Positions 11,072-24,138 of a stretch of 37,408 nucleotides of DNA are shown one piece after another. Every line of letters starts with the position of its first letter. Positions within the stretch are counted from its first letter, which is position 1. This stretch comes from Acidobacteriota bacterium (GTDB taxonomy: Bacteria; Acidobacteriota; Terriglobia; Bryobacterales; Bryobacteraceae): the NCBI GenBank assembly GCA_021787555.1, contig JAJYLS010000013.1, positions 1 through 37,408 on the forward strand. Direction: 5' to 3'. Both the position numbers and the translations under genes were made by a program. The notes under the pieces were generated by a model. The model ran no database searches. It was not told where the DNA came from and saw nothing but the letters and a program-made list of their open reading frames with translations.

Positions 11072-11551
11072 TCAATCCTCGAACAGCCGCCCCTGCTCTT
11101 TCACCGCCACCTTGGGCTTGCGCTTCCGCAGTGGGCTCCGCACCACGCCCAGTACCTCGACCGACCGCAGCGACCCACGCGGCACGAAAATCCGTTGCGT
11201 GTTGCTGAACGGATCGGGCGGGATGATCGTGAACCCACGGTACTCCACTTGTAGTAGATTATTGGGAAGGATGCCTTCGATCACCTCACCATCGCGGAAC
11301 TCCAGGCTGACCCAGAGCCCCTCCATCTTGGGGCGGGTCTGAAAGACATGGCGCTCCTCTGCTTTCGCATCGAATTCGCGGACAAAAGCGACCGATTTAA
11401 TCTCGGCGTACGGCACCACCGTCACCTGCCCCTCCGCCGAAAGCACTTCCACCCCTTCCGGCCGCAGAAACGCAACCGGATTTATGTAGCCGGCGAGCGG
11501 CTGCCGTTCATACCGGTGGACGATCGCTTTTTTGGTGGTCGAGGCCGGCAA
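11072..11551 (-). CDS. Conserved-looking hypothetical beta protein
   Basis: 159 residues, no signal peptide or membrane helix. The sequence is beta-rich (VTVVPYAEIKSVAFVREF, LWVSLEFRDGEVIEGI) and ends in a basic then acidic tail (PLRKRKPKVAVKEQGRLFED). I do not recognise a named family. The start is TTG at 11551, preceded by GAGGT at 5 bases; no in-frame ATG exists upstream before a stop. The gene is divergent from the recombinase gene and its stop directly abuts that of the SBBP gene. Confidence 0.65.
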   Translation of the reverse strand: MPASTTKKAIVHRYERQPLAGYINPVAFLRPEGVEVLSAEGQVTVVPYAEIKSVAFVREFDAKAEERHVFQTRPKMEGLWVSLEFRDGEVIEGILPNNLLQVEYRGFTIIPPDPFSNTQRIFVPRGSLRSVEVLGVVRSPLRKRKPKVAVKEQGRLFED

Positions 11552-11614
11552 AACTTACCTCATTTTCCGGTTGTATGTTTCAAACATTTCGGCGCTTATT
11601 GTATCATTGGCACG

Positions 11615-12520
11615 ATGCCCGAAGCGCTCGCGGCAAATCCGGCGGGGATGGCCCCCCAAATGGCGGCGTTCCTCAATTTCTGCCGCATCGAAAAGGGCCT
11701 CTCGGGCAACTCGATTTCCGCCTATTCCTCTGATCTGGAAAGGTTTACCGCGTTCTTCGAGGGCCGGATTCCGCTTACCCCGGAAGACCTCCGTCATTAT
11801 CTCGATCATTTATACCAATCCGGATTGGGCAACCGGTCGGTGGCGCGGCACCTCACCACTCTCCGGAACTTCTACCGTTTCCTGCTGCGCGAAGGGCTGG
11901 CGGAAAGCGATCCGACCGAGTACCTGGCCGCCCCACGGCAGTGGCAAACCATTCCTAAGTTTTTGAATTTAGAGCAGATCGATAAAATCATCGCGGTTCC
12001 CGATACGGCCCGGCCCACCGGCTTGCGGGACCGCGCCATGCTCGAACTGCTGTATGCCACCGGGCTGCGGGTTTCGGAACTTTGCCGCCTGGGCCTGGCG
12101 GACCTCGACCGGAGTTACGGCGTGGTGCGCACCACCGGCAAGGGCAACAAGCAGCGGCTGGTGCCGGTCGGAAAGGAGGCGCTGGCCGCGGTCGAGCAAT
12201 ATCTGGCCGCGGGGCGCGCGGCGCTGCTCAACGGACGGGCCAGTCGATACCTGTTCATTACCGCCCGTGGCGGCTGCATGACGCGCCAGGCATTTTGGAA
12301 GCTGCTCGCCGGGTACGGCCGCAAGGCCGGGATTTTCCACGGGTTGACGCCGCATGTGGTGCGGCACAGTTTCGCGACTCATTTACTGGAGGGAGGGGCG
12401 GACCTGCGCAGTGTGCAAGTCATGCTGGGGCACGCCGATATCTCGACCACCCAGATTTATACCCATGTCATGCGGTCGAGGCTGATGGACACGGTTCGGA
12501 AACACCACCCCCGGGCCTGA
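11615..12520 (+). CDS. xerD: Tyrosine recombinase XerC/XerD type
   Basis: A 301-residue site-specific recombinase. The N-terminal SAM-like domain (residues ~15-100) is followed by the catalytic domain with the complete set R152 (TGLRVSELC), K176 (TGKGNKQR), H247-x-x-R250 (HVVRHSFATHLLEGG), H273 (LGHADISTTQIYTHV) and Tyr282. The length is that of chromosomal XerC/XerD, which resolve chromosome dimers at dif; XerD is the better guess from the sequence but XerC cannot be excluded. No dif site or prophage is visible nearby, which argues against a mobile-element integrase. The ATG at 11615 gives the family length; in-frame sequence upstream is not conserved. Confidence 0.88.
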   Translation: MPEALAANPAGMAPQMAAFLNFCRIEKGLSGNSISAYSSDLERFTAFFEGRIPLTPEDLRHYLDHLYQSGLGNRSVARHLTTLRNFYRFLLREGLAESDPTEYLAAPRQWQTIPKFLNLEQIDKIIAVPDTARPTGLRDRAMLELLYATGLRVSELCRLGLADLDRSYGVVRTTGKGNKQRLVPVGKEALAAVEQYLAAGRAALLNGRASRYLFITARGGCMTRQAFWKLLAGYGRKAGIFHGLTPHVVRHSFATHLLEGGADLRSVQVMLGHADISTTQIYTHVMRSRLMDTVRKHHPRA

Positions 12521-12560: not shown

Positions 12561-13892
12561 ATGAGCGACTACATTTACATGCTGGAAAGCCACCTCAGTC
12601 CGGACCAGAACTGGGTGGTGGACGAAGTGCAAGCTGCCGCCGCGCAAGCCAATGTGAATATCTTCCTGGCTGGGGGCGCGATGCGGGACATGCTCGCGGG
12701 CTTTCGCATCCGCGATCTGGATTTCGTGGTCGAAGGCAATGCCCTGAAGCTCGCCAATGCGGTCGCCGGGCATGCCGGCGCCAAGACTGTCTCCATCGAC
12801 GAAAACCGGAAGGCGGCCGAACTCGTTTTTCAAAACGGGGCCACCGTGCAGATCGCCATGTCGCGCCAGGAAAAGTATGCGCGCAGCGGTGCCAAACCGC
12901 AGGTCAGCGCGGCCACCATCCAGGAAGACCTGCGCGGCCGCGATTTCACCTGCAACGCCATTGCGCTGTCGCTCAACCGGGCGTCGCGCGGGCTGCTGCT
13001 CGATCCCATGAACGGGCTGGCGGACATCGACCGCCGCGAGCTGCGCTCCGTCAGTGCCTACGGTTTTTACGACGATCCCTCGCGCCTGCTGCGGCTGGTG
13101 CGGTTCCGCATACGCCTGGGGTTCACCATCGAGGAGCGCACCGCCATGCAGGTGGCCAACGCGCGCGAAGCGGAAGTGCAGAAGCTGGTCCCGCCGCGCG
13201 CGCTGGGCGAAGAGCTCAAACGCATCGGCGCCGAGGACAGCCCGTGCGAGGTCCTGAAGGCGCTGGAAGCAGCCGGGCTGCTGGCGCTTTTCTCGCCCGC
13301 GCTGGTGGGACCGAAGGCCAATTGGGCCGGCCTGGCGCGCTTCGAGAAGCTCAGCCATCTGCTGCCGGACGATCCGCGCACGCGCGCCGCGCGCCTGGGG
13401 CCGTTCCTCTACGCGCTCGCGGAGAAACTGGCGCCCAAAGAGAAGCAGGCGCTGATCAAGGCCACCGATCTTCTCAAGGCCGAAGTGGACCAGTGGCAGA
13501 AACTGGAGGCGCGTGCCAAAAAGCTGGAGACGGCGCTGCGCTCGGCGCGCATCAAAAAAGCCTCGCAGGTGTATGCGATCGTTTCCACGGCGGCGCCGGA
13601 CGACGTGCTCTTCGTGATGTATCACTCCGCTCTCAAGCCGGTGCAGGAGCGGCTGCGCAACTACTTCCAGAAATATCTGCCGGCGGTGCTCGAGATCACG
13701 CCCGAAGAATGGGGCCAGATCGAGGGCAAGCCGGGCACGCCGCGCTACGAGAAAGCCCGCGACGCGCTGCTGGCCGACCGCCTCGACCGCCGCCCGCGCA
13801 AAGCCGAGCCGGCCGGCGAGGCCGCCCCACCGCAGCCCGGTCCGGGCAGCCCCCCCCTTTCCGAGCCCATCCTGGCGCGACGGAGGACGTGA
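12561..13892 (+). CDS. tRNA nucleotidyltransferase / poly(A) polymerase family
   Basis: 443 residues of the class II nucleotidyltransferase family. The head domain has FLAGGAMRDMLAG (GG at 38-39) and the metal-binding pair RDLDFVVEG (D52, D54). Then come RGRDFTCNAIAL and DPSRLLRLVRFRIRLGF, which are the family's base-recognition and neck motifs. Members add CCA to tRNA 3' ends or add poly(A); some bacteria split these roles between two genes, and this sequence alone does not say which. The last ~40 residues are Pro/Arg-rich and outside the core. The ATG follows the recombinase stop by 40 bases. Confidence 0.9.
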   Translation: MSDYIYMLESHLSPDQNWVVDEVQAAAAQANVNIFLAGGAMRDMLAGFRIRDLDFVVEGNALKLANAVAGHAGAKTVSIDENRKAAELVFQNGATVQIAMSRQEKYARSGAKPQVSAATIQEDLRGRDFTCNAIALSLNRASRGLLLDPMNGLADIDRRELRSVSAYGFYDDPSRLLRLVRFRIRLGFTIEERTAMQVANAREAEVQKLVPPRALGEELKRIGAEDSPCEVLKALEAAGLLALFSPALVGPKANWAGLARFEKLSHLLPDDPRTRAARLGPFLYALAEKLAPKEKQALIKATDLLKAEVDQWQKLEARAKKLETALRSARIKKASQVYAIVSTAAPDDVLFVMYHSALKPVQERLRNYFQKYLPAVLEITPEEWGQIEGKPGTPRYEKARDALLADRLDRRPRKAEPAGEAAPPQPGPGSPPLSEPILARRRT

Positions 13893-14248: not shown

Positions 14249-14397
14249 ACTCACTTTCAGTTATTTTAGATGCGTGCTTAAATGCACGTGGGTGGCCAGA
14301 TCGGTACGTGCAGAGACATTATCGCCAAAAGAAGGTCCGCGGCCTGGGCTGTACGATATGGATCAGCGTCATCGATTGGGTGTCCCTTTTGGTTCAA

Positions 14398-15378
14398 CTA
14401 CGGACGCCGCTTGAGCGTAGGCCGCTCGTCCTGATCCGCGCGCTCGTCGCCGTCCCCCCGCTCCGCGGGGCGCCGCAGCGTCGGCCCGGTCTGGGGCGGC
14501 TCGGCCGTGCGCCGCTCGTGCATCGCGGCCAGGCGCCGCCGGACGTCGCCGAATTCCGAGGTCGAGACGATGTACATCGGCTGCTGCCTGAGTAACTGTT
14601 CGATGGTCTGCTGCGTGGCTTTGATCCGGTTGGACATGTTCGGGTGAGAGCGGAAGATCTCCGAAAAGGTATCCGGCTGCTTCCTTTCCAGGGCCGCCAT
14701 CCTTTCGAAGAAGTCCACAAAGGCAGTCGGATCGTAGCCGGCCTTGTACACGTACTGCACGGCGAGCAAATCCGCCTCCTCCTCGAACCCGCGCGAGAAC
14801 TTCAGGAACGCCACCGGAATGGCCAGGCCCACGCCCTGCCGGATGGCGAAGCCCGGCCACCCGCCCATAAAGATCAGCGGAAGGCTGGCCCAGTTCGCGA
14901 GTTGGCCCCGCGACGCCTGGCGGGTGCCGTGGCGCGCCGCCACATGGGCGAGCTCATGGGCAATCGGCCCGGCGAGCTCCGCCTCGGTTTCGGCCTTTAA
15001 TATCAGCCCCGTGTTGACGAACAGAAAGCCGCCGGGCAGCGCGAAGGCATTCACCTGGGGACTGTCGATCAGCTTCGCAATCACGGGGACCTTAACGTCG
15101 GAGTTACGCGCGATTTTCTGCGCCATGCGGTTCACATACTCGGCGGCGATGGGATCGTCCACCAGTTTGGCCTCGCGGTCGACTTCCTGGGCCAATTGTT
15201 TGCCCAGGGCGATTTCCTTCTCCAGCGAATAGAAGTTGACGCCCGACCCGACATCCCGCTCGCCGATCTTTTCCGGGTCCTTCTTGGGATCCTTGGATTG
15301 CGCGAATGCGGGTGGAAACAGAAGCGTGGCAATCGTGGCGGCGATTACGAAATGAAGGATGAAATGGGTCCGTTTCAT
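14398..15378 (-). CDS. M48-family zinc metalloprotease, exported
   Basis: A 326-residue peptidase with a signal peptide (residues 1-26, ending AFA). The zinc motif HELAH is at 141-145 within the conserved block IAHELAHVAARHGTRQASRG, and a downstream Glu-rich motif (RGFEEEADLLAVQYVYKAGYDP) provides the third ligand. NAFALPGGFLFVNTGLI is also typical. Homologs such as BepA act in periplasmic quality control of outer-membrane proteins. The C-terminal ~40 residues are Arg/Glu/Pro-rich and outside the domain. The ATG at 15378 is preceded by AGGGAG; longer readings add non-conserved residues. It is the last gene of the minus-strand run. Confidence 0.9.
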   Translation of the reverse strand: MKRTHFILHFVIAATIATLLFPPAFAQSKDPKKDPEKIGERDVGSGVNFYSLEKEIALGKQLAQEVDREAKLVDDPIAAEYVNRMAQKIARNSDVKVPVIAKLIDSPQVNAFALPGGFLFVNTGLILKAETEAELAGPIAHELAHVAARHGTRQASRGQLANWASLPLIFMGGWPGFAIRQGVGLAIPVAFLKFSRGFEEEADLLAVQYVYKAGYDPTAFVDFFERMAALERKQPDTFSEIFRSHPNMSNRIKATQQTIEQLLRQQPMYIVSTSEFGDVRRRLAAMHERRTAEPPQTGPTLRRPAERGDGDERADQDERPTLKRRP

Positions 15379-15454
15379 AATCCCAGCTCCCTCTGGCTGT
15401 GACACTCGGTGGGGAGCACGTTGCAGGCCGCAAACCGGGGCGGGGAAATGGAAC

Positions 15455-15826
15455 TCAGGCAGTGGCGGCTTGCGGGTCAGCCGCCGCACGTTCCTGGCAA
15501 CGAATGCAGCAGTCTGCCCAGGGAAGGGCTTGCAGGCGTTTCGGAGAAATCGGATTGCCGCATTCGGCGCAGATGCCGAAATCTCCGTTGGCCAGCCGGG
15601 CGAGAGCCGCGTCGATCCGGCCGAGTATCTCGTGATCCAGTCTTTTCACCTCTATCGAGATGTACCGGTCGTGCTGCACGGGCGCTTCATCGTCCGGCGA
15701 CAGGCGCCCGCCGGCGGCCAACTCCGTGCGCCCGGCGGCCGCGTTCCGCAGCAGGTCCGCCTTCTTCGCCAGGAGCAGGCACCGGTAATCCTCCAGCCCC
15801 ATGCTCGCGATGCGCGGCTTCTTCAT
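15455..15826 (-). CDS. DksA/TraR C4 zinc-finger protein
   Basis: 123 residues. The C-terminus has the C4 zinc finger CAECGNPISPKRLQALPWA-D-CCIRC (C86, C89, C107, C110), with the usual conserved PxRLxALPxA core. The N-terminal half is coiled, as in DksA, and ends in LARLANGDFGICAECG. DksA/TraR proteins bind RNA polymerase through the secondary channel and modulate promoters during stress or starvation. The coiled-coil tip motif of DksA is not obvious, so it is safer called DksA/TraR-like than DksA. It lies between the ATPase and the protease. Confidence 0.88.
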   Translation of the reverse strand: MKKPRIASMGLEDYRCLLLAKKADLLRNAAAGRTELAAGGRLSPDDEAPVQHDRYISIEVKRLDHEILGRIDAALARLANGDFGICAECGNPISPKRLQALPWADCCIRCQERAAADPQAATA

Positions 15827-15867
15827 GCGACCCCGAATGCCAGCACGTTCCGCGCCATTTGAGCGCG

Positions 15868-18177
15868 TCAGGCGGCCGGCTGAGCGTCGATCAGCGCGAG
15901 GTAAGCCTCATCTTCCTGGGCGAAGTGCAGCCGCAGCACGGCGTAAAGGCTATAGAGGATCCGCCGCAGCTCGCGAATGTCCTCCGGTCCGAGGCCTTCC
16001 GCAGGCAGGTCCGCGAGGTTCCGGCCCAGCACCTTGATCATGTGCGCAATCTCGATATGAGCCCGGCTCATGGGCGCCGTGGGATCGTCGCCGCCAATCA
16101 ACTTCGCGACCACCGGGTATACATCGGCATCCTCGGCTTGTTCGTGCGGCAGGATTTTACGTACGAGAAACGCGTGCAGGTCCTCGACCTGGGCACGCGC
16201 CAACGGCGCCGGCAGAAGATCCAGGCGGTCCGCAGTCTCGCGAATGCGCTTGATTCCCGGCAGGAGTTCGCGGTGCTCGTTGCGGCAGCGCTCGCCGAAT
16301 GCCTGGCCGGCGATTTCCGGCGCTGGCTTCGGCTGGCGGCCGCGCAGCGCGCGCAGAGCGTTCAGGATCACCACCACGTCGATGACCTCCTGGAGGAGGG
16401 CGCCGCCCACGGGAGACAGATACCCTGCCGCCGCGCAGGCCATCGCCACCAGCGAGAGGCCCATGCCGGCGAGGATGCTTTCGACGGCAATCGATCGCGA
16501 GCGCCGTGCGATCCGCACCGCTTCCACCAGGCGGTCGAGCCGGTCCACCGCCAGCACGATGTCGGCGGATTCGGAGGAAGCGGTCGCCCCGCGCGCACCC
16601 ATGGCAACGCCGGCGTCGGCCGCCGCCAGCGCGGGCGCGTCGTTGATGCCATCGCCCACCATCACCGTGACCGCCCTCTGGCGCGCCGCCTGCACGGCTT
16701 CCAGTTTTTCCGACGGCGATCTCTCGGCCAGAACCTCATTCACGCCCACGACACCGCCCACCAGTTCCGCTGTTTCCGCGCGATCGCCGGTGAGCATCAC
16801 GATCTGTTCGAAACCCGAGCGGCGCAGCGCACGCAGGGTCAGCGGCGCATCCGGACGTACGGCGTCTTCGAGAATGAGGGCGCCCTCGATCGCCCCCTCC
16901 ACGGCGATGAAAACGGTGGAACACCCTTCCAGGCTGGCGCGGCGCCGCAGGCGGCGCACCGGCGAGGGACATGGCGCGCCATCCAGCAGCCAGTCGCTTC
17001 TCCCCAGCGCGACAGACAAGCCGCCCACGCGTCCTCGAATGCCGCTGCCCAGGTCTTCCACCACGTCCGTTGGAAACCGCGGCTCGATGCCCCTCTCCGC
17101 CGCGGCTTTAAGAATGGGACCCGCCAGTACATGCGGCGATACCTGGTCGAGCGACGCGGCCAGCGCGAGCAGCCCCTCGGCGCTGTAACCGCCGAACGTC
17201 TCGATCTGGGTCACCGCCGGCGATCCCGCCGTCACCGTGCCGGTCTTATCCAGGATGAGGGTCCGCCCCCGGGCCAGCGTTTCCAGGGCGCCGCCGCCTT
17301 TCACGATGATGCCTCTGCGCGCGGCGCGGGAGATGCCCGCCACAATGGCAATGGGCGCCGCCAGGATGAGCGGGCACGGCGTTGCCACCACCAGGACCGC
17401 CAGCGCGCGCACCGGATCGCCGGAAACGATCCAGGCCGCCGCGGCGGCAGCCAGGGTCAATGGCAGAAAGACCATCGCGTACCGGTCGGCAAGCCGCACG
17501 AGGGGAGCTTTCGATCCCTGAGCCTGCCGCACCAGCCGCAGGATCCCGGCGTAGGTGCTGGCTTCCGGCGTGGCCGTCGCTCGCAGGCGGAAAGGTGTGC
17601 CGGCCGCATTCGCCGTTCCGCTCCGTACCGCCTCGCCCGGCCTGCGGGCCACGGGATTGACCTCGCCGGTGAGGGCAGCCTCGTCCAGCACCGCCGCCTC
17701 TCCCACCACCACGCCATCCACCGGAACCACTTCTCCCGGCTTGACCAGAAGGAGATCTCCGAGCTTCACCGTTTCGAGAGGAACGGGCGTAATCGCCCCT
17801 TCCTGGCAAAGGTGCGCAACGCGCGGCGCCCGCCGGAGCAGAGCCGACAACTCCCGCCGGGCCCGTGATTGGGCGAAGGTTTCGAGCGCGCGGCCCCCCG
17901 ACAGCATCAGCGCAATGATGCCGCCCGCCAAATATTCGCCCAGGAGCAGGGCGCCCGCCATGGCCAACAGCGCAATGACATCGACGCCCGCCTTGCCACG
18001 GCGCAGTTGCAGAACGGTGTTATACGTGAGCGGAGCCAGCACGGCCGCCGTCGTGCCCGCCCAGATGATGTTGGCTACGCCGGGCGAGCCGCCCAGCCAT
18101 GCCAGCCCGCCCAGTGCGAGCCCCGCCGCCGTCCAAAGCGGCATCAGCCGGTCGGCCGCCTGAAAGAACCCGGTCAA
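15868..18177 (-). CDS. P1B-5-like metal-transporting ATPase fused to hemerythrin
   Basis: A 769-residue inner-membrane P-type ATPase. The actuator motif TGEVNP is at 170-175, the transport motif TPCP at 266-269, the phosphorylated D310 in DKTGT, MLTGDR at ~461 and MVGDGINDAP at ~506. The TPC motif fits the P1B-5 group, known for Ni/Fe/Co-linked transport. There is no N-terminal heavy-metal domain. Residues ~625-769 form an HHE hemerythrin domain with H635, H678 (HEQAED), H707, H712 and H751 (HFAQEDE), suited to an oxygen- or metal-sensing di-iron site. Such C-terminal fusions are known in P1B-5 enzymes. The usual HP dipeptide of the nucleotide domain reads HV (SPHVLA). The start is TTG at 18177, with GGAG 6 bases before it, overlapping the end of the small upstream gene. 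Confidence 0.92.
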   Translation of the reverse strand: MTGFFQAADRLMPLWTAAGLALGGLAWLGGSPGVANIIWAGTTAAVLAPLTYNTVLQLRRGKAGVDVIALLAMAGALLLGEYLAGGIIALMLSGGRALETFAQSRARRELSALLRRAPRVAHLCQEGAITPVPLETVKLGDLLLVKPGEVVPVDGVVVGEAAVLDEAALTGEVNPVARRPGEAVRSGTANAAGTPFRLRATATPEASTYAGILRLVRQAQGSKAPLVRLADRYAMVFLPLTLAAAAAAWIVSGDPVRALAVLVVATPCPLILAAPIAIVAGISRAARRGIIVKGGGALETLARGRTLILDKTGTVTAGSPAVTQIETFGGYSAEGLLALAASLDQVSPHVLAGPILKAAAERGIEPRFPTDVVEDLGSGIRGRVGGLSVALGRSDWLLDGAPCPSPVRRLRRRASLEGCSTVFIAVEGAIEGALILEDAVRPDAPLTLRALRRSGFEQIVMLTGDRAETAELVGGVVGVNEVLAERSPSEKLEAVQAARQRAVTVMVGDGINDAPALAAADAGVAMGARGATASSESADIVLAVDRLDRLVEAVRIARRSRSIAVESILAGMGLSLVAMACAAAGYLSPVGGALLQEVIDVVVILNALRALRGRQPKPAPEIAGQAFGERCRNEHRELLPGIKRIRETADRLDLLPAPLARAQVEDLHAFLVRKILPHEQAEDADVYPVVAKLIGGDDPTAPMSRAHIEIAHMIKVLGRNLADLPAEGLGPEDIRELRRILYSLYAVLRLHFAQEDEAYLALIDAQPAA

Positions 18178-18180
18178 TGT

Positions 18181-18327
18181 CTACTCCAAAAGTAAGATCG
18201 CGGCATACAGGCCCCAGAAAACCGCCATGGCCGCGGCCGCCACGCCCGCATAGCGCAGCACCCGTACCGTCGGCTTTTCCGGTGGCCCTTCGCTCCGCTT
18301 AATCTCCTCGTTGATACTCTCGAACAT
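18181..18327 (-). CDS. Small membrane protein upstream of the ATPase
   Basis: A 48-residue protein: a charged N-terminus (MFESINEEIKRSEGPPEKP) followed by one hydrophobic helix (VAAAAMAVFWGLYAAILLLE). A GGTGGA ribosome site lies 6 bases before the ATG. The TAG stop is followed after 3 bases by the ATPase TTG, so the two are probably translated together. Such peptides often associate with a membrane transporter as a regulator, but that role is inference. The family is not recognised. Confidence 0.65.
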   Translation of the reverse strand: MFESINEEIKRSEGPPEKPTVRVLRYAGVAAAAMAVFWGLYAAILLLE

Positions 18328-18400: not shown

Positions 18401-18910
18401 CTACTCCCCTGCCGCCGTTCTGACCGCTCCCAATCGAACTTCTTCCTGAGCGCCCTTCCTGTGGGTTTGCCGGGCCCGGCTGTGCTGTTCAGCCGCGCGC
18501 TCCCAGGCCAGCGTGACCACCCGGTGCACCTCGCTCCGGTCCAGCGGTTTCGCCAGGACGTCGTACCCGCCCAGGTTCAGGACCTCCGCCCAGAGGCGAT
18601 CGTCGGCCAGCCGCGAGGTCACGATCAACGGCGGCGGGTCGTCCATCCGCGAGGCCGCTTCCAGGATATCTTTCCAGTCGCCATCCGGCAGGTCGCGCTC
18701 GCAGACGATCACGCGCGTGGCAATCCACGGAGTGACTGTCGCGAATTCCAGACATTCCCGCATCCGGCACACCTGCCATGGAAACTGGTCGAAGAACGAG
18801 CCCTGGCCGCATTCTTCTTCGACCGGGCCGACAATCACCAGCGCGGGAATGTGTATCCGAGGATCGTGCCGCAACAGGTACGGCAGGATCGCGGGTTGTT
18901 TAATCTTCAT
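18401..18910 (-). CDS. Receiver-like protein with Glu in place of phospho-Asp
   Basis: 169 residues with the outline of a response-regulator receiver: VIVCERDLPDGDWKDIL, LIVTSR and YDVLAKPLDRSEV (K121). The position that should be the phosphorylated Asp is Glu71 (CERDLPDGDW), which commonly mimics the phosphorylated state, so this may be a permanently 'on' or phosphate-independent receiver. The first acidic pair is also weak. There is no output domain; the last ~30 residues are basic and disordered. It overlaps the upstream DUF302 gene by 4 bases (ATGA), so it is probably co-translated with it. Confidence 0.72.
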   Translation of the reverse strand: MKIKQPAILPYLLRHDPRIHIPALVIVGPVEEECGQGSFFDQFPWQVCRMRECLEFATVTPWIATRVIVCERDLPDGDWKDILEAASRMDDPPPLIVTSRLADDRLWAEVLNLGGYDVLAKPLDRSEVHRVVTLAWERAAEQHSRARQTHRKGAQEEVRLGAVRTAAGE

Positions 18911-19332
18911 CTTGCTCCGTCGGGTTTCGCGCCGGCGTGTCTCTCCGACGCGGATTGCAATGCCAGTTCGATGCGTCCCACCAGCCTGTCCACGGGATCG
19001 GCCGCCCCGGCCGGAAACCGCGCATCCAGCAGGTGAGTGGGGTTCGCGATGGAAACCTCGGTCCGGTCTCCAGCCCCCGAAATCACCACGTGCAGCGGGA
19101 GAAATACCGCCGCCGCGCGGTCGAGCGCGAGGGCCTCGAATACCAACAGGGGATTATCGACCAGCAGAATCCTGCACGGCCGCCGTGAAGGATTCCCGTT
19201 GATCACTTCCGCGGTATCGAATTCCGCGACAATATTCAGGTCCGTGGCAGTGAGCTCACTCCGAATCGTTTTGAGGGCCCGGTCGAACTGGTCTTCGATT
19301 ACGAAGGATTCGAAAGTGGATACGGCTTGCAC
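18907..19332 (-). CDS. DUF302-like protein B
   Basis: 141 residues resembling the DUF302 (TT1751) fold: FDRALKTIRSELTATDLNIVAEF, then RILLVDNPLLVFEALALDRAAAVFLPLHVVI and EVSIANPTHLLDA. The function of the family is not established; members often occur with redox or sulfur genes. There is no signal peptide. The start is GTG at 19332 with GAGGGGG before it. The N-terminus aligns residue for residue with paralog A upstream (15 residues before FDRA in both). Tandem duplication with partial divergence is likely. Confidence 0.72.
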   Translation of the reverse strand: MQAVSTFESFVIEDQFDRALKTIRSELTATDLNIVAEFDTAEVINGNPSRRPCRILLVDNPLLVFEALALDRAAAVFLPLHVVISGAGDRTEVSIANPTHLLDARFPAGAADPVDRLVGRIELALQSASERHAGAKPDGAR

Positions 19333-19387: not shown

Positions 19388-19795
19388 TCAGGCGGCCACC
19401 CCGGCGCGCATTCCCACCGCCTCGATGGCTTGGCCCATTACCATCACCATGCGGCTCAAAACCGGACTGGCTTCGGATTTCCCGACCCCGTGCGGCAGAA
19501 CGTGCAGGACGTGCACATCGGTCTGCGACCCGCGCGACGAAACCACCACGTGCAAGGGGGTCAGCGCCGTGGCCGCGCGGTCCGCTGAAAAACTCTCCGG
19601 GGCCGCAGCGGGGCAGACAAACAGCACCACACAGGGGGCCGTCTGAATCATCAGGGACCGCTGGATCCGGCCGGACATATTCAACTCGCCCGTGATCCTC
19701 AGGTCCGCCCCGGCCAGCGCCCTGCGCACCATTTGCACCGCGCGATCGAATGGCTCCGCGATGGTATACGTAGTGGTCGCACTTTCCAGTGTCAT
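19388..19795 (-). CDS. DUF302-like protein A
   Basis: 135 residues from the ATG at 19795, paralog of the next gene downstream: FDRAVQMVRRALAGADLRITGEL, then LMIQTAPCVVLFVCPAAAPESFSADRAATALTPLHVVVS and DVHVLHVLPH. It keeps the DUF302 outline but has lost part of the central block. The start is supported by alignment to paralog B. A sigma-54-like site lies directly upstream, 13-28 bases before the ATG, which would leave almost no leader. Function unknown. Confidence 0.7.
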   Translation of the reverse strand: MTLESATTTYTIAEPFDRAVQMVRRALAGADLRITGELNMSGRIQRSLMIQTAPCVVLFVCPAAAPESFSADRAATALTPLHVVVSSRGSQTDVHVLHVLPHGVGKSEASPVLSRMVMVMGQAIEAVGMRAGVAA

Positions 19796-19807: not shown

Positions 19808-19823
19808 AGCAAGCCCATTGCCA
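19808..19823 (-). promoter_or_regulatory. Candidate sigma-54 promoter of the DUF302 operon
   Basis: On the minus strand the site reads TGGCAATGGGCTTGCT, matching 10 of 12 fixed positions with correct GG-N10-GC spacing. The gene directly upstream is a sigma-54 activator. The weak point is that the predicted start (about 19797) is only 2 bases before the ATG. Confidence 0.4.
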
Positions 19824-19918
19824 ACGTTCCCAGAACCGCTTCGGAGAAGTTCGACCGTGAGCCGAAATGCGATTTGCCAAGTGCACCGTTCCAAAAGTCC
19901 GGCAACGGATTCCGCTGG

Positions 19919-19982
19919 ACCGCTTCCTTCGGTCGCGGCTCAGGGTGGAGCGCCGTGCAGAGCCGCGACCGAAAGGAGCGGT
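19919..19982. repeat. REP-like long inverted repeat
   Basis: Arms of 22 bases (19919-19940 and 19961-19982) match inverted at 20 of 22 positions around a 20-base loop. The core GGTCGCGGCT / AGCCGCGACC is perfect. It lies between the NtrC-type gene and the DUF302 gene and resembles the interspersed hairpins often seen in acidobacterial genomes; copy number cannot be judged from one window. Confidence 0.65.
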
Positions 19983-20055
19983 CTGGCCTCTGTTGGAAGC
20001 GCTAGCGGTGTCCCTTTTGCGGCAGGTGCCCGTTCGGCGTGTACGCTTTGGTCAG

Positions 20056-21447
20056 CTACGGTTCCGCCGCGGCCGCGGTGGGTTCTTTGTGGAACCCATA
20101 CTTTTCCATGCGATAGATCAGGGTTCGGCGGCTGATGTCGAGGAACGCGGCAGCCTTGGTCTGGTTCCAGTTGAATTTCTTCAGCGCCTTGAGGATCAGC
20201 TCCTTTTCGACGGCTTCCAGGCTGATTCCCTGCGCCGGAAGCTCGAGCTGAATCGAATCCTGGCCGGGCCTCTCCTTGCGCAGAAATTCCGGCAGATCGT
20301 TGAGCGCGATTTCGTCGCCCGCGGCCAGTACCGTCAGGCGCTCGATCACGTTCTCCAGTTCCCGGATATTTCCCGGCCAGCGGTATCCGGCAAAGTAGGG
20401 CAGCAGGCGCGGAGGCAGCTTCAGGTTCGGCATATTGTGCCTCTGCCGCGCCTTCAGAAACAGTTGCTCGACCAACTCGGGGATGTCCTCCATGCGCTCG
20501 CGTAGCGGCGGCAACTCCAGCGGAATCACCGTCAGCCGGTACAGCAGGTCTTCGCGGAAGGCGCCATCCTCCACCAGGGCTTGCAGGTTGCGGTGGGTGG
20601 CCGCAATGATCCGCACATCCACGGTGATCACCTCGGTGGCGCCGACTTTTTCGATCTCGCGATTTTGCAGCAGCCGCAGCAGCTTCACCTGAAGCTCCAT
20701 CGGCATCTCGCCCACCTCGTCCAGGAACAGCGTGCCGCCGTCGGCCGTCTCCACCTTGCCGCGCTTGGGAGCGAAAGCGCCGGTGAAGGAGCCTTTCGAA
20801 TGCCCGAACAGCTCGGACTCCAGCAGGTCGCGCGGGATCGCCCCGCAGTTGATGGTCACAAACGGTTTTCCCTTGCGCCGGCTGTTCTGGTGGATGGCGT
20901 GCGCCAGCAGTTCCTTGCCGGTGCCCGTTTCCCCGCGAATCAGCACCGTGGAATCGCGCTCCGCCACGCGGGCAGCCATCTCCAGCACCTGTAGCAGGTT
21001 CTTGGAATGCCCGATGATGGTCTCGAAGCCGTATTTCCGGTCGAGGCTCAGGCGCAGTTGCTCGACTTCCACCACGAGTTGCTGGTGCTCTACCGCGCGG
21101 CCCACCAGCAGTACCAGTTCTTCGTAATCGATGGGCTTGGTGATGTAGTCGTAGGCGCCGTTCTTCATGGCTTCCACGGCCGTCTGCACGGTGCCGAAGG
21201 CGGTCATCATCAGGACCGCCGTTTGTGGCAAGGACCGGCGGATTTGCCGCAGCAGATCCAGTCCGGAAATGCCCGGCATTTTGAGGTCGGTGATCACCAG
21301 CGCCGGCGCCTCGGTTTCCACCAGCGCCAGCGCCTGCTCGCCGTTGCCGGCCACCAGCACCTCGTAGCCCGCGTCCTGAAGCTGCAACTGCGTCACCCGG
21401 CGCAGGCTTTCGTCATCGTCAACGACTAATATTCTTCGCGCTGCCAT
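20056..21447 (-). CDS. NtrC-family sigma-54-dependent response regulator
   Basis: 463 residues in three parts: a receiver (D54 in VITDLKMPG, K104), an AAA+ domain with Walker A GETGTGKE (172-179), the sigma-54 contact loop GSFTGA (219-224) and Walker B FLDE (241-244), and a C-terminal Fis-type HTH (NWNQTKAAAFLDISRRTLIYR, ~424-445). Once phosphorylated, such proteins open sigma-54 promoters with ATP. It overlaps the kinase gene by 29 bases, so the two form a pair. The likely targets are nearby sigma-54-like sites, but no upstream enhancer was located. Confidence 0.95.
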   Translation of the reverse strand: MAARRILVVDDDESLRRVTQLQLQDAGYEVLVAGNGEQALALVETEAPALVITDLKMPGISGLDLLRQIRRSLPQTAVLMMTAFGTVQTAVEAMKNGAYDYITKPIDYEELVLLVGRAVEHQQLVVEVEQLRLSLDRKYGFETIIGHSKNLLQVLEMAARVAERDSTVLIRGETGTGKELLAHAIHQNSRRKGKPFVTINCGAIPRDLLESELFGHSKGSFTGAFAPKRGKVETADGGTLFLDEVGEMPMELQVKLLRLLQNREIEKVGATEVITVDVRIIAATHRNLQALVEDGAFREDLLYRLTVIPLELPPLRERMEDIPELVEQLFLKARQRHNMPNLKLPPRLLPYFAGYRWPGNIRELENVIERLTVLAAGDEIALNDLPEFLRKERPGQDSIQLELPAQGISLEAVEKELILKALKKFNWNQTKAAAFLDISRRTLIYRMEKYGFHKEPTAAAAEP

Positions 21448-22534
21448 ACGACCTCTCCCGGTTTAGCGGAAGGAGCACCGAAAACGTCATGCCCTTGTCC
21501 GGATTGGCTTCCGCCTTCAAAATACCTCCGTGCTGCTCCACAATCTGGTGGGCCACCGACAGGCCCAGGCCCGTTCCGGCTTCCTTCGTGGTGAAGAAAG
21601 GATCGAAGATCCGGTCGCGGATCTCCGGTCCGATGCCCGAGCCTTGGTCCTTCACCTCCAGTTGCACGCGTCCTTCCCTCCGCCGCGCGGACACGAGAAT
21701 CTCCCCCCCATCCGGTGTCGCCTGGACGGCGTTAAGGATCAGGTTCAGCATCACCTGTTTGAGCAGATCGGGATCGCATTCAATGGCGGCGATTTCGGGC
21801 TCCACCGCGTGGCGCAGAGCCAGCCGTTTTCCACCCAGCGAGTGCCCCGCCAGTTCCACGGTGGATTCGATCAGCCCGGCCACATCGATGCTCCGGAAGC
21901 TGGGCGCGCGCGGGCGCGCAAACGCCAGAAAATGGCTGAGCAACTCATCCAGCCGCCGGCATTCCTTAGAGATGATTTCCAGGCATTCCCCGTCTTTCGA
22001 ATCGAGCCGCAGGTTTTTCCGCAGCAGCCCGGCGGCCCCGGCGATACTGGCTACCGGGTTGCGCACCTCGTGCGCCAGTCCGGCCGAGAGCTGTCCCAAA
22101 GCGAACAGTCGTTCCGCGCGCTTCATCCGCTCGAAATTGTCCTGGAGCTCCCGGTAGACCTCCGTCAGCCGTCGGGTCGTGCGCTCCAGGTCGGCGCGCT
22201 GTTTCCGCCCGCGCTCCGCCAACACGCCGGTCACCGCACCGGCGGCGCAGAACAGCGGGAAATCCCAGAGTTGATTGATCGCGTCGCCCGGCAGGTCCTT
22301 CCAGATGAGCAGGTTGTACGGGAGATTGCAGAGCCCGGCAAACAACCCGGCCGCCAGGCCCCCGCGCCAGCCAAAGCCCAGACCCGCCAGAAAAATCGGC
22401 AGATAGTAAAGCTGCTGAAACGCGTTGTGCCATTGCCGCAGCGGGTGCGGGGTCACATAGTGGAGAACACTGATAGCCAGTATTCCCCCCACCACGGCGG
22501 CAAGGCGGGCACCGAACCTGCTACGCATCCGCAT
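21419..22534 (-). CDS. Membrane sensor histidine kinase (partner of NtrC-type RR)
   Basis: 371 residues from the ATG at 22534. The N-terminus holds about four hydrophobic segments (residues ~12-105) with no large periplasmic loop, then a coiled linker, the H-box LSAGLAHEVRNP (H155), an N-box (NLILNAVQATPDGG), GSGIGPE and GTGLGLSVAHQIVEQHGG. It would phosphorylate the NtrC-type regulator whose gene overlaps its end. The signal is unknown. The ribosome site is weak and M3 (22528) is an alternative start. The gene is divergent from the small secreted protein at 22618. Confidence 0.9.
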   Translation of the reverse strand: MRMRSRFGARLAAVVGGILAISVLHYVTPHPLRQWHNAFQQLYYLPIFLAGLGFGWRGGLAAGLFAGLCNLPYNLLIWKDLPGDAINQLWDFPLFCAAGAVTGVLAERGRKQRADLERTTRRLTEVYRELQDNFERMKRAERLFALGQLSAGLAHEVRNPVASIAGAAGLLRKNLRLDSKDGECLEIISKECRRLDELLSHFLAFARPRAPSFRSIDVAGLIESTVELAGHSLGGKRLALRHAVEPEIAAIECDPDLLKQVMLNLILNAVQATPDGGEILVSARRREGRVQLEVKDQGSGIGPEIRDRIFDPFFTTKEAGTGLGLSVAHQIVEQHGGILKAEANPDKGMTFSVLLPLNRERSYGSAKNISR

Positions 22535-22617: not shown

Positions 22618-22968
22618 GTGACGATCCGCATGAGATCTTTGGCAATTGTTCTCGCGCTTGGATTCTTCGCCGGCATCGCACTTGCCGACAAAGGGAAGAG
22701 TTACCGCATCACCCTGACCAGCGACTCCCAAATCGGCTCCCAGCAGTTGCCCGCCGGCGACTACAAGCTCACGTTGCAAAACGAGGAGCCCAAGGTGCGC
22801 CTGGCCGATGCGAAGACCGGCGAGGAGCTCAAGGTTACGGGCAACGTCGAGCTCGCGGAAGAAAAGTTCGACAGCACCGAAGTTCATTGCGACCGTGCAG
22901 AAGGCGCGAACCGCATCACTGAGATTCGACTCGGAGGAACCAAGACCAAGGTGGTGTTTCAAAGATAA
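22618..22968 (+). CDS. Small secreted beta-rich protein, 'AGEYKL' family, copy 2
   Basis: 116 residues with a signal peptide (residues 1-~23, ending ALA). It shares LPAGDYKLTLQNEEPKV and ITEIRLGGTKTKVVF with the 107-residue protein at 8136-8459. The start is GTG with GAGGAGG 7 bases before it. The gene is divergent from the kinase operon and is followed by a cytochrome c peroxidase gene. No function is assigned. Confidence 0.78.
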   Translation: MTIRMRSLAIVLALGFFAGIALADKGKSYRITLTSDSQIGSQQLPAGDYKLTLQNEEPKVRLADAKTGEELKVTGNVELAEEKFDSTEVHCDRAEGANRITEIRLGGTKTKVVFQR

Positions 22969-23088: not shown

Positions 23089-24138
23089 ATGAGCACACGG
23101 GAACTCGCAGTCGCTGCCCTCGCGGGGGCGTTAATCGGGGCGGGGTGCAGCGGCACCCCGGGGGGCCGGGCCATTTCCGACCGCACCAGGCTGCAACAGT
23201 TCGCAGCCCTGCCGGCGGTGATGCCTGCCGAGGCCGGGCCGCCGGCGGATGCCATGGTTGCGCTCGGCCGCACGCTGTACTTCGATCCGCGCCTTTCCAA
23301 GAGCCAGACCATCTCCTGCAACTCCTGCCATGCGCTGGATAAGTACGGTGTGGATGGGCAGCCGACCTCCACCGGGTTCCACGCGCAGCACGGCACGCGC
23401 AACTCACCTTCGGTGTATAACGCCGCGGCCCAGTTCGTGCAGTTCTGGGATGGACGTTCTCCCAACGTCGAGGAGCAGGCCAAGGGCCCTATCCTCAACC
23501 CCGTGGAAATGGCCATGGATTCGCCTGAGGCAGTGGTCGTAGTACTGAAGTCCATGCCCGAATATGTCGCGGCCTTCCGGCAGGCTTTCCCGGGCTACCC
23601 CGATCCGGTGACCTTCAATAACGCGGCCCAGGCGATCGGAGCTTTCGAACGCAAACTGGTTACCCCCTCGCGTTGGGACCAGTTTCTGAATCACGAAGAG
23701 TCGGCGTTGTCCCCCGAAGAGAAGGGCGGATTCAACGTGTTTGTCGAGGAGGGCTGCGCCACCTGTCACAGCGGCCGCCTCGTGGGCGGCGAGACCTACC
23801 AGAAGCTGGGAATCGTGAAGCCTTATCCCGATGCGTCCGATCCGGGCCGCTACGATGTGACCAAGAGCGAAGCCGACCGCATGGTTTTCAAGATCCCCTC
23901 CCTGAGAAATGTGGCGATGACAGCGCCCTATTTCCACAACGGCAAGGTTGCCACCTTGCAGCAGGCCGTCGCCGAGATGGCGGAGTTTCAGCTCGGCAAG
24001 AAGCTCTCCGGCGAACGCGTGGATGCCATCATCATCTGGCTGAAGTCGCTGACCGGCGGTCTTCCCGCCGAGTACCTCAAAGCGCCGGAACTCCCAAAGA
24101 GCACCGCCAAAACCCCGAAACCCGCGCCGGAGGTGTAG
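23089..24138 (+). CDS. Di-haem cytochrome c peroxidase (CcpA/MauG family), lipoprotein
   Basis: 349 residues. The N-terminus has a lipobox-like GAGC (C20), so the protein is probably lipid-anchored in the periplasm. Two c-type haem sites are present: CNSCH (77-81) and CATCH (223-227). Conserved family blocks are LYFDPRLSKS, NSPSVYNAA, QFWDGRSPNVEEQAKGPI, and FKIPSLRNVAMTAPYFHNG. Known members reduce hydrogen peroxide with electrons from cytochrome c. The length is normal apart from a Pro/Lys-rich tail. GGAGGAG precedes the ATG. Confidence 0.93.
   Translation: MSTRELAVAALAGALIGAGCSGTPGGRAISDRTRLQQFAALPAVMPAEAGPPADAMVALGRTLYFDPRLSKSQTISCNSCHALDKYGVDGQPTSTGFHAQHGTRNSPSVYNAAAQFVQFWDGRSPNVEEQAKGPILNPVEMAMDSPEAVVVVLKSMPEYVAAFRQAFPGYPDPVTFNNAAQAIGAFERKLVTPSRWDQFLNHEESALSPEEKGGFNVFVEEGCATCHSGRLVGGETYQKLGIVKPYPDASDPGRYDVTKSEADRMVFKIPSLRNVAMTAPYFHNGKVATLQQAVAEMAEFQLGKKLSGERVDAIIIWLKSLTGGLPAEYLKAPELPKSTAKTPKPAPEV

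Follow-up and report, generated by a model that had tools for sequence, protein, structure and literature searches.

What does a P-type ATPase that ends in a hemerythrin-like domain do, and when would such a pump be made? These questions are raised by a gene in a 37,408-nucleotide stretch of DNA from a member of the Bryobacteraceae (Acidobacteriota; contig JAJYLS010000013.1 of assembly GCA_021787555.1), referred to below as the window. An intact open reading frame (ORF) with a TTG start, at 15868..18177 on the minus strand, encodes a 769-amino-acid protein that the ORF itself, Pfam matches, an alignment and a tree mark as a P1B-5 ATPase with a C-terminal HHE (hemerythrin-like) domain. We hold, with slightly better than even confidence, that it is an exporter of the Nia kind with a di-iron HHE tail, encoded in a sigma-54-dependent run of genes under a histidine kinase and an NtrC-type regulator. 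The pump with its hemerythrin tail is of an already known kind; what is new is the sigma-54/DUF302 setting.

Class and relatives of the pump

A preliminary description of this DNA, made from the sequence letters, had placed an ORF at these positions and given no strand. The frame proved to be intact and to lie on the minus strand, where its TTG has GGAG 6 bases upstream and adjoins the stop codon of the preceding small gene. An 819-amino-acid open frame on the plus strand (15409-17868), which covers most of the ATPase, was rejected. Pfam matched E1-E2_ATPase (2e-43, residues 117-288), Hydrolase (9.6e-24, residues 305-521) and, far above chance, Hemerythrin PF01814 (4.9e-14; 53.3 bits against a cut-off of 25.3; residues 631-762, or 15892..16287 on the minus strand), in agreement with the earlier view of an ATPase with a terminal HHE domain. 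T266-P267-C268, DKTGT and the five histidines H635, H678, H707, H712 and H751 also lie where they had been placed. Among NCBIfam models, that for heavy-metal P-type ATPases scored 510 bits and the cadmium-family model 464 bits, passing its cut-off of 313.5; the copper model, at 332 bits, fell below its cut-off of 397. Matches of the pump part in the Protein Data Bank were copper, zinc and cadmium P1B pumps, both by sequence and by fold.

TPC in transmembrane segment 4 (TM4) together with QExxD in TM6 are the defining motifs of P1B-5. In the window pump they stand at residues 266-268 (17374..17382) and, as QEVID, at residues 596-600 (16378..16392), both on the minus strand. TPC and the Q, E and D of the second motif are present in all 34 HHE-bearing proteins that we aligned, among them a pump encoded on pSymA of Sinorhizobium meliloti 1021 (637583-639775), which is 49% identical to the window pump over 95%. 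We take the pSymA pump to be Nia (SMa1163), although the record carries no annotation at that place. The 34 rows comprise 9 proteins from sampled genomes including the window, 17 of the 64 matching plasmid records, and 8 proteins among the genome-contig matches listed, which come from a scan with generic P-type motifs in which taxa are under-sampled. Two rows (L022, the pSymA pump, and L168) are both from S. meliloti. Two proteins were left out, L046 because it is not a single open frame and L115 because its sequence stops short of the HHE domain; L037, L122 and L126 were kept despite being truncated at the front. Two control sets were added: 24 TPC/SPC-QExxD pumps that lack an HHE domain, and 28 further P1B pumps.

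The P1B tree that had been proposed as a check was built from these 86 rows and 552 columns of the pump core, with the HHE domain excluded (IQ-TREE quick search; support from the Shimodaira-Hasegawa-like approximate likelihood ratio test [SH-aLRT] only, no bootstrap). The window pump pairs with a homolog from another genome of its family (locus L125, genome G874; SH-aLRT 97), and the two group with seven further rows of their own phylum (SH-aLRT 98). A 39-row group (SH-aLRT 99) holds all HHE rows, the pSymA pump included, and five HHE-less rows. The whole TPC/SPC-QExxD clade of 58 rows is split from the 28 CPC/SPC rows, which include Escherichia coli CopA (L129) and ZntA (L130), with an SH-aLRT of 100. 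Placement among the Cu or Zn pumps is thereby rejected, and the P1B-5 assignment of the preliminary description is supported by both the tree and the identity to the pSymA pump. The tree requires three changes of the HHE label, and a single gain plus two losses would account for them.

The dipeptide HV in place of HP, previously singled out as unusual, is the rule among these pumps. H349 is present in all 34 HHE-bearing rows, and the residue after it is V in 27, I in 3, and L, M, A and T in 1 each. At the same position the 24 HHE-less relatives have P in 17, V in 5, and I and T in 1 each, and 27 of the 28 other P1B pumps have P. Since V also occurs in five pumps without an HHE domain (L116, L038, L040, L043, L047), it marks the pump group and not the domain. 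TPC/QExxD pumps with HP and without an HHE domain are also found in the class and family of the window (L007-L015, L119, L120); together with L014, L048 and L049, this pump type makes up a clade of its own. Judged by the TPC motif alone, such pumps would be mistaken for P1B-5. By sequence, then, the window pump belongs with Nia among the P1B-5 ATPases, a type already known, and is ordinary for that type.

The pSymA pump shares with it TPC, QExxD, an HV-type dipeptide and the HHE residues save H712 and D756, which are replaced by Arg and Leu, respectively. Its neighbors differ: within 8 kb it has a P2-type ATPase, a universal stress protein and ferritin, and no DUF302/NtrC module. Fusions of this sort were known: the accessible text of a review describes hemerythrin-tailed P1B-5 pumps in Acidothermus cellulolyticus and S. 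meliloti (PMC9388753).

The pump gene is rare and scattered within the lineage of its host. Among 236 further genomes of the family, 4 had a match (the best, G874, at 67% identity); among 395 further genomes sampled across the phylum, 6 matched at an E value of 1e-130. Of these six, four have the HHE domain (60-62% identity), one does not (L020) and one is cut by the contig end (L021). At an E value of 1e-100 or better, 64 of 72,556 plasmid records match, in every case with a query coverage of 80% or more and an identity below 60%.

Proposed ligands and predicted fold of the HHE domain

Which residues of the tail would hold metal? Six positions, H635, H678, H707, E709, H751 and E755, are invariant in the 34 HHE-bearing rows, and position 682, which is E in the window, is acidic throughout (E in 17, D in 17). 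Q754 is found in 33 rows and E679 in 32, the exceptions at 679 being D in L121 and G in L122, both from the family of the window. Position 756 is acidic in 31 rows, Leu in both S. meliloti rows and Gln in one. The five-histidine site suggested earlier does not hold: position 712 is H in just 13 of the 34 rows (R in 19, E and L in 1 each), whereas the other four histidines never vary, so the fifth appears dispensable. We also rejected the canonical hemerythrin site, H-HxxxE-HxxxH-HxxxxD, as position 711 is Ala in the window and H in only 3 of the 34 rows, and H712 sits five residues after H707. The pattern H-HxxxE-H-HxxxE fits all 34 rows (H635, H678, E682, H707, H751 and E755), with D at 682 in the 17 rows noted.

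Structure prediction agrees with such a domain. A model of the domain (a 159-residue piece, built with 17 sequences) has a mean predicted local distance difference test (pLDDT) value of 87.7 and a predicted template modeling (pTM) score of 0.81. The modeling that had been suggested thus yields a predicted four-helix bundle (helices 11-44, 47-84, 91-112 and 121-154 of the piece), with one invariant histidine on each helix. In the full-length model (25 sequences; pLDDT 82.3, pTM 0.69) the linker 615-622 falls below a pLDDT of 50, so the placement of the tail relative to the pump is not fixed by the model. By profile, the nearest solved protein to the HHE domain is YtfE (E value, 4.2e-5). Foldseek with the HHE model returned no match at an E value of 0.001. 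Re-aligned fold matches included chains of PF0695, NMB1532 and FBXL5 (Z scores of 11.7-13.6), which were not counted toward membership because designed and unrelated bundles reach the same Z.

Our results therefore point to a domain that probably holds a di-iron site formed by H635, H678-xxx-E682, H707 and H751-xxx-E755, that is, one histidine per helix and two carboxylates. E709 and, usually, E679 would be further conserved acids, and H712 does not seem to be needed for the site. For the A. cellulolyticus protein A0LQU2, also a P1B-5 pump with a C-terminal hemerythrin-like domain, the published motif is H-HxxxE-HxE-HxxxxD (PMC9388753, accessible text); our 34 rows agree on HxE and suggest HxxxE, not HxxxxD, at the end. 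The eukaryotic E3 ligase sensors FBXL5 and BRUTUS have, in the portion of the source available, the same H-HxxxE-H-HxxxE pattern as the window tail (PMC12022348). They have no sequence match to it, however, and the Z score of 11.7 for the FBXL5 chains is equaled by unrelated helical bundles.

Gene setting and a candidate sigma-54 promoter

The preliminary description had judged the neighbors of the pump worth a look, and it is there that the new information lies. A membrane histidine kinase, an NtrC-type regulator, two DUF302-like proteins, a receiver-like protein, a 48-amino-acid membrane protein, the pump, a DksA/TraR protein and an M48 peptidase are encoded in this order and in one direction, on the minus strand. 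The kinase (21419..22534) has an ORF that opens at 22681, its start being placed at a Met by inspection. The NtrC-type response regulator (20056..21447) has a receiver, a sigma-54 activator domain and a Fis-type helix-turn-helix. DUF302b (19388..19795; ATG at 19795 by alignment) has no Pfam match itself, but its homolog at L125 matches DUF302; the DUF302 protein next to it (18907..19332) scores 37.5 bits against a cut-off of 23. Similarly, the receiver-like protein (18401..18910) stays below the Pfam cut-off for Response_reg, and its homolog at L125 lies above it. The 48-amino-acid small membrane protein (18181..18327; it begins MFESINEEIKR) ends 3 bases before the pump; homologs occur in the module, described below, at L125 (two), L153, L154 and L158. 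Directly 3' of the pump is the DksA/TraR zinc-finger protein (15455..15826; 9e-12), followed by the M48 peptidase (14398..15489), whose likely start is an internal Met near 15378.

Among 40 loci with flanking sequence, only L125, of the same family, has the set of kinase, NtrC-type regulator, both DUF302 proteins and receiver-like protein near a P1B-5 pump. Its kinase and regulator are 57% and 73% identical to those of the window, in a different gene order. More distant kinase and NtrC genes are found at L121 (36% and 44%) and L111 (32% and 41%). A DUF302b-like match is present in 41 of 237 genomes of the family, the own genome included, and besides G874 we examined 11 of the other 39, mainly those with the strongest matches. 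All 11 loci have an NtrC-type regulator of 64-80% identity and 10 have the kinase (L161 begins within the NtrC gene, and the kinase of L157 is cut). DUF302 genes number two in eight loci and one in three. The receiver-like protein recurs at L154 and L155, M48 at L154 and L159, and DksA at L160. The module thus exists without the pump, and the window and L125 are two genomes in which the pump joins it. We found no description of this kinase/NtrC/DUF302 module in the accessible parts of the open-license literature searched.

In the 10 kinases aligned, two histidines never vary: one where the first membrane stretch ends, the other in a (W)H...Q.LYYLP stretch. They could bind metal or heme, or take a redox signal; a Pfam scan found no sensor domain in the kinase.

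Another P-type ATPase stands in the module at L152, L154 and L158. That of L154, the only one of the three given a Pfam search, matches Cation_ATPase_N and _C and hence is P2-like. Records from Sinorhizobium and Methylobacterium (L022, L024, L168) also have a P2-type ATPase next to their P1B-5 pump. P2-type and P1B-5 pumps may answer the same stress.

A sigma-54 -24/-12-like box, TGGCAATGGGCTTGCT, lies at 19808..19823 on the minus strand, 28 bases upstream of the DUF302b ATG. We scanned 250 bases upstream of DUF302b at 13 module loci with a general sigma-54 consensus that was not fitted to them. L160 and L161, which have no start codon at the aligned place (best boxes 25 at -71 and 22 at -58), were dropped before counting; L158, whose aligned start is a codon other than ATG, was kept. 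In each of the 11 remaining loci a box of the form TGG...TTGC, with CTGC instead in L155 and GTGC in L162, begins 28-45 bases before the DUF302b start, a count for which the range of -50 to -25 was picked after looking and in which the loci are related (median upstream identity, 48%). The box ranks best of the 250 bases in 10 loci (tied in L159) and second in L154. The summed best score of 272 was reached in none of 500 dinucleotide shuffles (mean 193, maximum 221); for the window box alone, 0.1% of 2000 shuffles scored as high. All 11 loci reach a score of 23 and 7 reach 25; of the 241 ORF starts that these stretches contain, those of DUF302b among them, 12% reach 23 and 7% reach 25.

An enhancer-like palindrome, TGCCGCAAAAGGGACA, at 20009..20024 on the minus strand, has 2 mismatches to TGTCCC-N4-GGGACA. 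This consensus is met with at most 2 mismatches in 12 in 6 of the 11 loci (the window, L152, L153, L156, L157 and, with zero mismatches, L159), and the mismatches summed over the 11 loci are 29 (shuffled mean 47, minimum 38); the test is partly circular because the consensus was drawn from the same loci. A genome-wide search from the palindrome gave six sites with at most 1 mismatch, three of them in the window, one being the starting site; with at most 2 mismatches there were 70 matches against 68 in the control, no excess. Near-copies of TGNCCCAAANNGGACA with 1 mismatch lie at 14381-14396, after the M48 gene, and at 22092-22107, inside the kinase gene; with 20009-20024 these make up three of the six best sites in the genome. 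A genome-wide palindrome regulon was considered and rejected: eight stretches around 12 of the sites listed gave one pair of site and sigma-54-like box, with no clear gene behind it. Between palindrome and box, and between the NtrC and DUF302b genes, is a strong inverted repeat (19915-19986) that belongs to a dispersed kind: counted over both strands, the genome has 25 matches to it, spread over 16 places, its own included. It may explain why the palindrome of the window stands at -229 rather than at about -100.

Elsewhere in the window, a di-heme cytochrome c peroxidase gene of the MauG type (23089-24138) diverges from the kinase gene after a small protein gene (22618-22968), and upstream of it we saw no palindrome or sigma-54 box of note. 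A phage-integrase-family (tyrosine recombinase) gene (11348-12520) lies just before a poly(A)-polymerase-like gene (12561-13892). Rfam had no match at gathering scores anywhere in the window.

For the wider setting of HHE pumps, 29 HHE loci were compared with 63 other P1B loci, each having a total flank of 8 kb or more, with the search reaching 8 kb to either side. The survey is biased in favor of the HHE set: its seeds were mostly HHE loci, and the controls come chiefly from genome contigs and the HHE loci mostly from plasmids. A universal stress protein was found at 15 of the 29 HHE loci (11 of 17 plasmid records, 2 of 6 genome contigs listed and 2 of 6 sampled genomes) against 3 of the 63 others. 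BON, CBS and ferritin each occur at 4 HHE loci and P2-type ATPase and DksA each at 3, all against none of the others; DUF302 and VIT each occur at 3 against 1. Of these families the window has only DUF302 and DksA. In individual loci the pump is followed immediately by ferritin, with VIT farther on (Mycolicibacterium, L028), or by a ferritin-like gene (L111), or has NRAMP and ArsR/SmtB (L025, L026) or hemN, pseudoazurin and TraR/DksA (L170) nearby.

Proposed function and alternative explanations

What the accessible texts report on Nia bears on the metal. Fe2+ and Ni2+ induce its gene, and both accumulate when it is mutated in one strain (PMC4932525); in a review of iron detoxification Nia appears among the iron exporters, classed under P1B4 (PMC7762939). 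By analogy, the window pump most likely uses ATP to export a transition metal, Fe2+ and/or Ni2+, from the cytoplasm, on which side its HHE domain would also lie. Labile Fe2+ or Ni2+ would be removed, for example, as oxygen drops and iron becomes reduced. The run from DUF302b through DUF302, the receiver-like protein, the small membrane protein and the pump to DksA is probably read, perhaps as a single transcript, from a sigma-54 promoter before DUF302b. The kinase and NtrC-type regulator would activate that promoter, plausibly under low oxygen or metal stress, and so set the amount of pump. Iron and O2 would then fill and oxidize (or reduce) the HHE site and so probably change pump turnover. 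This raises the possibility of two layers of iron/oxygen control, in which the sigma-54 module switches pump synthesis on and the di-iron domain of the pump then sets its activity; we propose it tentatively, expecting that it may well fail. According to the available text of a review, it is unclear whether the hemerythrin tail of P1B-5 pumps senses oxygen/redox or iron (PMC9388753).

A related design is known from Myxococcus xanthus. In its NmpRSTU system, as far as the accessible text goes, kinases and a regulator of the NtrC type act on sigma-54 promoters, and the low-oxygen regulon includes genes for a hemerythrin, a universal stress protein and a P-type ATPase (PMC11841059). It differs in its site (GCGCA-N5-TGCGC, compared with the recurring TGTCCC-N4-GGGACA here), in that its ATPase precedes cbb3 oxidase genes, and in that NmpU needs heme (PMC11841059). 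The part seen of the Bradyrhizobium microoxia tables, which lacks the column heads, gives positive fold values for universal stress, CBS and DUF302 proteins, phosphoketolase and AdhP (PMC6515984), and the accessible text on the Burkholderia lxa low-oxygen locus calls it important for anoxic survival (PMC3759415).

Several observations weigh against a Nia-kind exporter under sigma-54 control. The pump is found at none of the 11 further module loci, and L121, L111 and L122, P1B-5 loci of the phylum or family, lack the same module beside the pump; the partnership is therefore not obligate. No universal stress protein lies within 8 kb of the window pump. The window box is 13 bases (from its GC) from the DUF302b ATG, which would give a nearly leaderless transcript, and the window as a whole has 48 sigma-54 boxes against a shuffled mean of 38.7, no clear excess. 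Directly upstream of the pump, no box or palindrome recurs at one distance among L125, L111, L112, L114, L121 and the window (the close relatives L112 and L114 both have a box, at -85/-78), so the promoter claim is limited to DUF302b. Finally, deletion of nia in S. meliloti CCNWSX0020 left tolerance to Cu, Zn, Cd, Pb and Ni unchanged, according to the accessible text (PMC4932525).

Some of these points would suit an ordinary P1B-5 pump that stands beside the module by chance, with an HHE domain that is an iron buffer, a chaperone or a relic and not a regulator, an explanation that we regard as unlikely though far from negligible. The domain can be lost, as HHE-less pumps of the same clade attest (L116, L039, L041, L042, L051), and a chance neighbor would fit both the pump-free module loci and the rarity of the gene in the family. 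A relic, however, would not keep six ligand positions invariant in 34 rows and a seventh always E or D. Chance is also at odds with the joint occurrence of pump and module in two of the five pump-bearing genomes of the family (the window and L125), and with the short gaps and single direction of the genes from promoter to pump. We give still less credence, and not much, to a tail that handles nitric oxide or Fe-S repair like YtfE/RIC, on a pump that exports iron freed by nitrosative damage. YtfE is the closest solved relative by profile, nosR/nosZ lie near the pump in L168, and a ScdA_N-Hemerythrin gene is located about 9 kb from the L111 pump; yet the YtfE ligand H105 has no conserved counterpart in the alignment, and the window has no NO-related gene beside the pump. 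That the protein pumps Cu+ or Zn2+ (P1B-1 or P1B-2) and that its helical tail is unrelated is very improbable: the cadmium-family model is indeed passed, but TPC and QExxD stand where CPC would be expected, the tree sets the pump apart from all 28 CPC/SPC pumps, the copper model misses its cut-off, and Hemerythrin scores 53 bits against a cut-off of 25.

For the pump family, the conservation over 34 rows sharpens the candidate ligand set of the tail, with a terminal HxxxE rather than HxxxxD and no fifth histidine. The two-layer control, if true, would make the module a stress regulon not described before, in which the place of a P-type ATPase is taken by P1B-5 in two genomes and by a P2-type ATPase in three, and would set DUF302 proteins in a regulatory context. 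Should the module prove real, the unexplained DUF302 family would be linked to a defined two-component system. Its promoter, its regulator and the conditions that it suggests would also put the question of when such a pump is made on a concrete footing.

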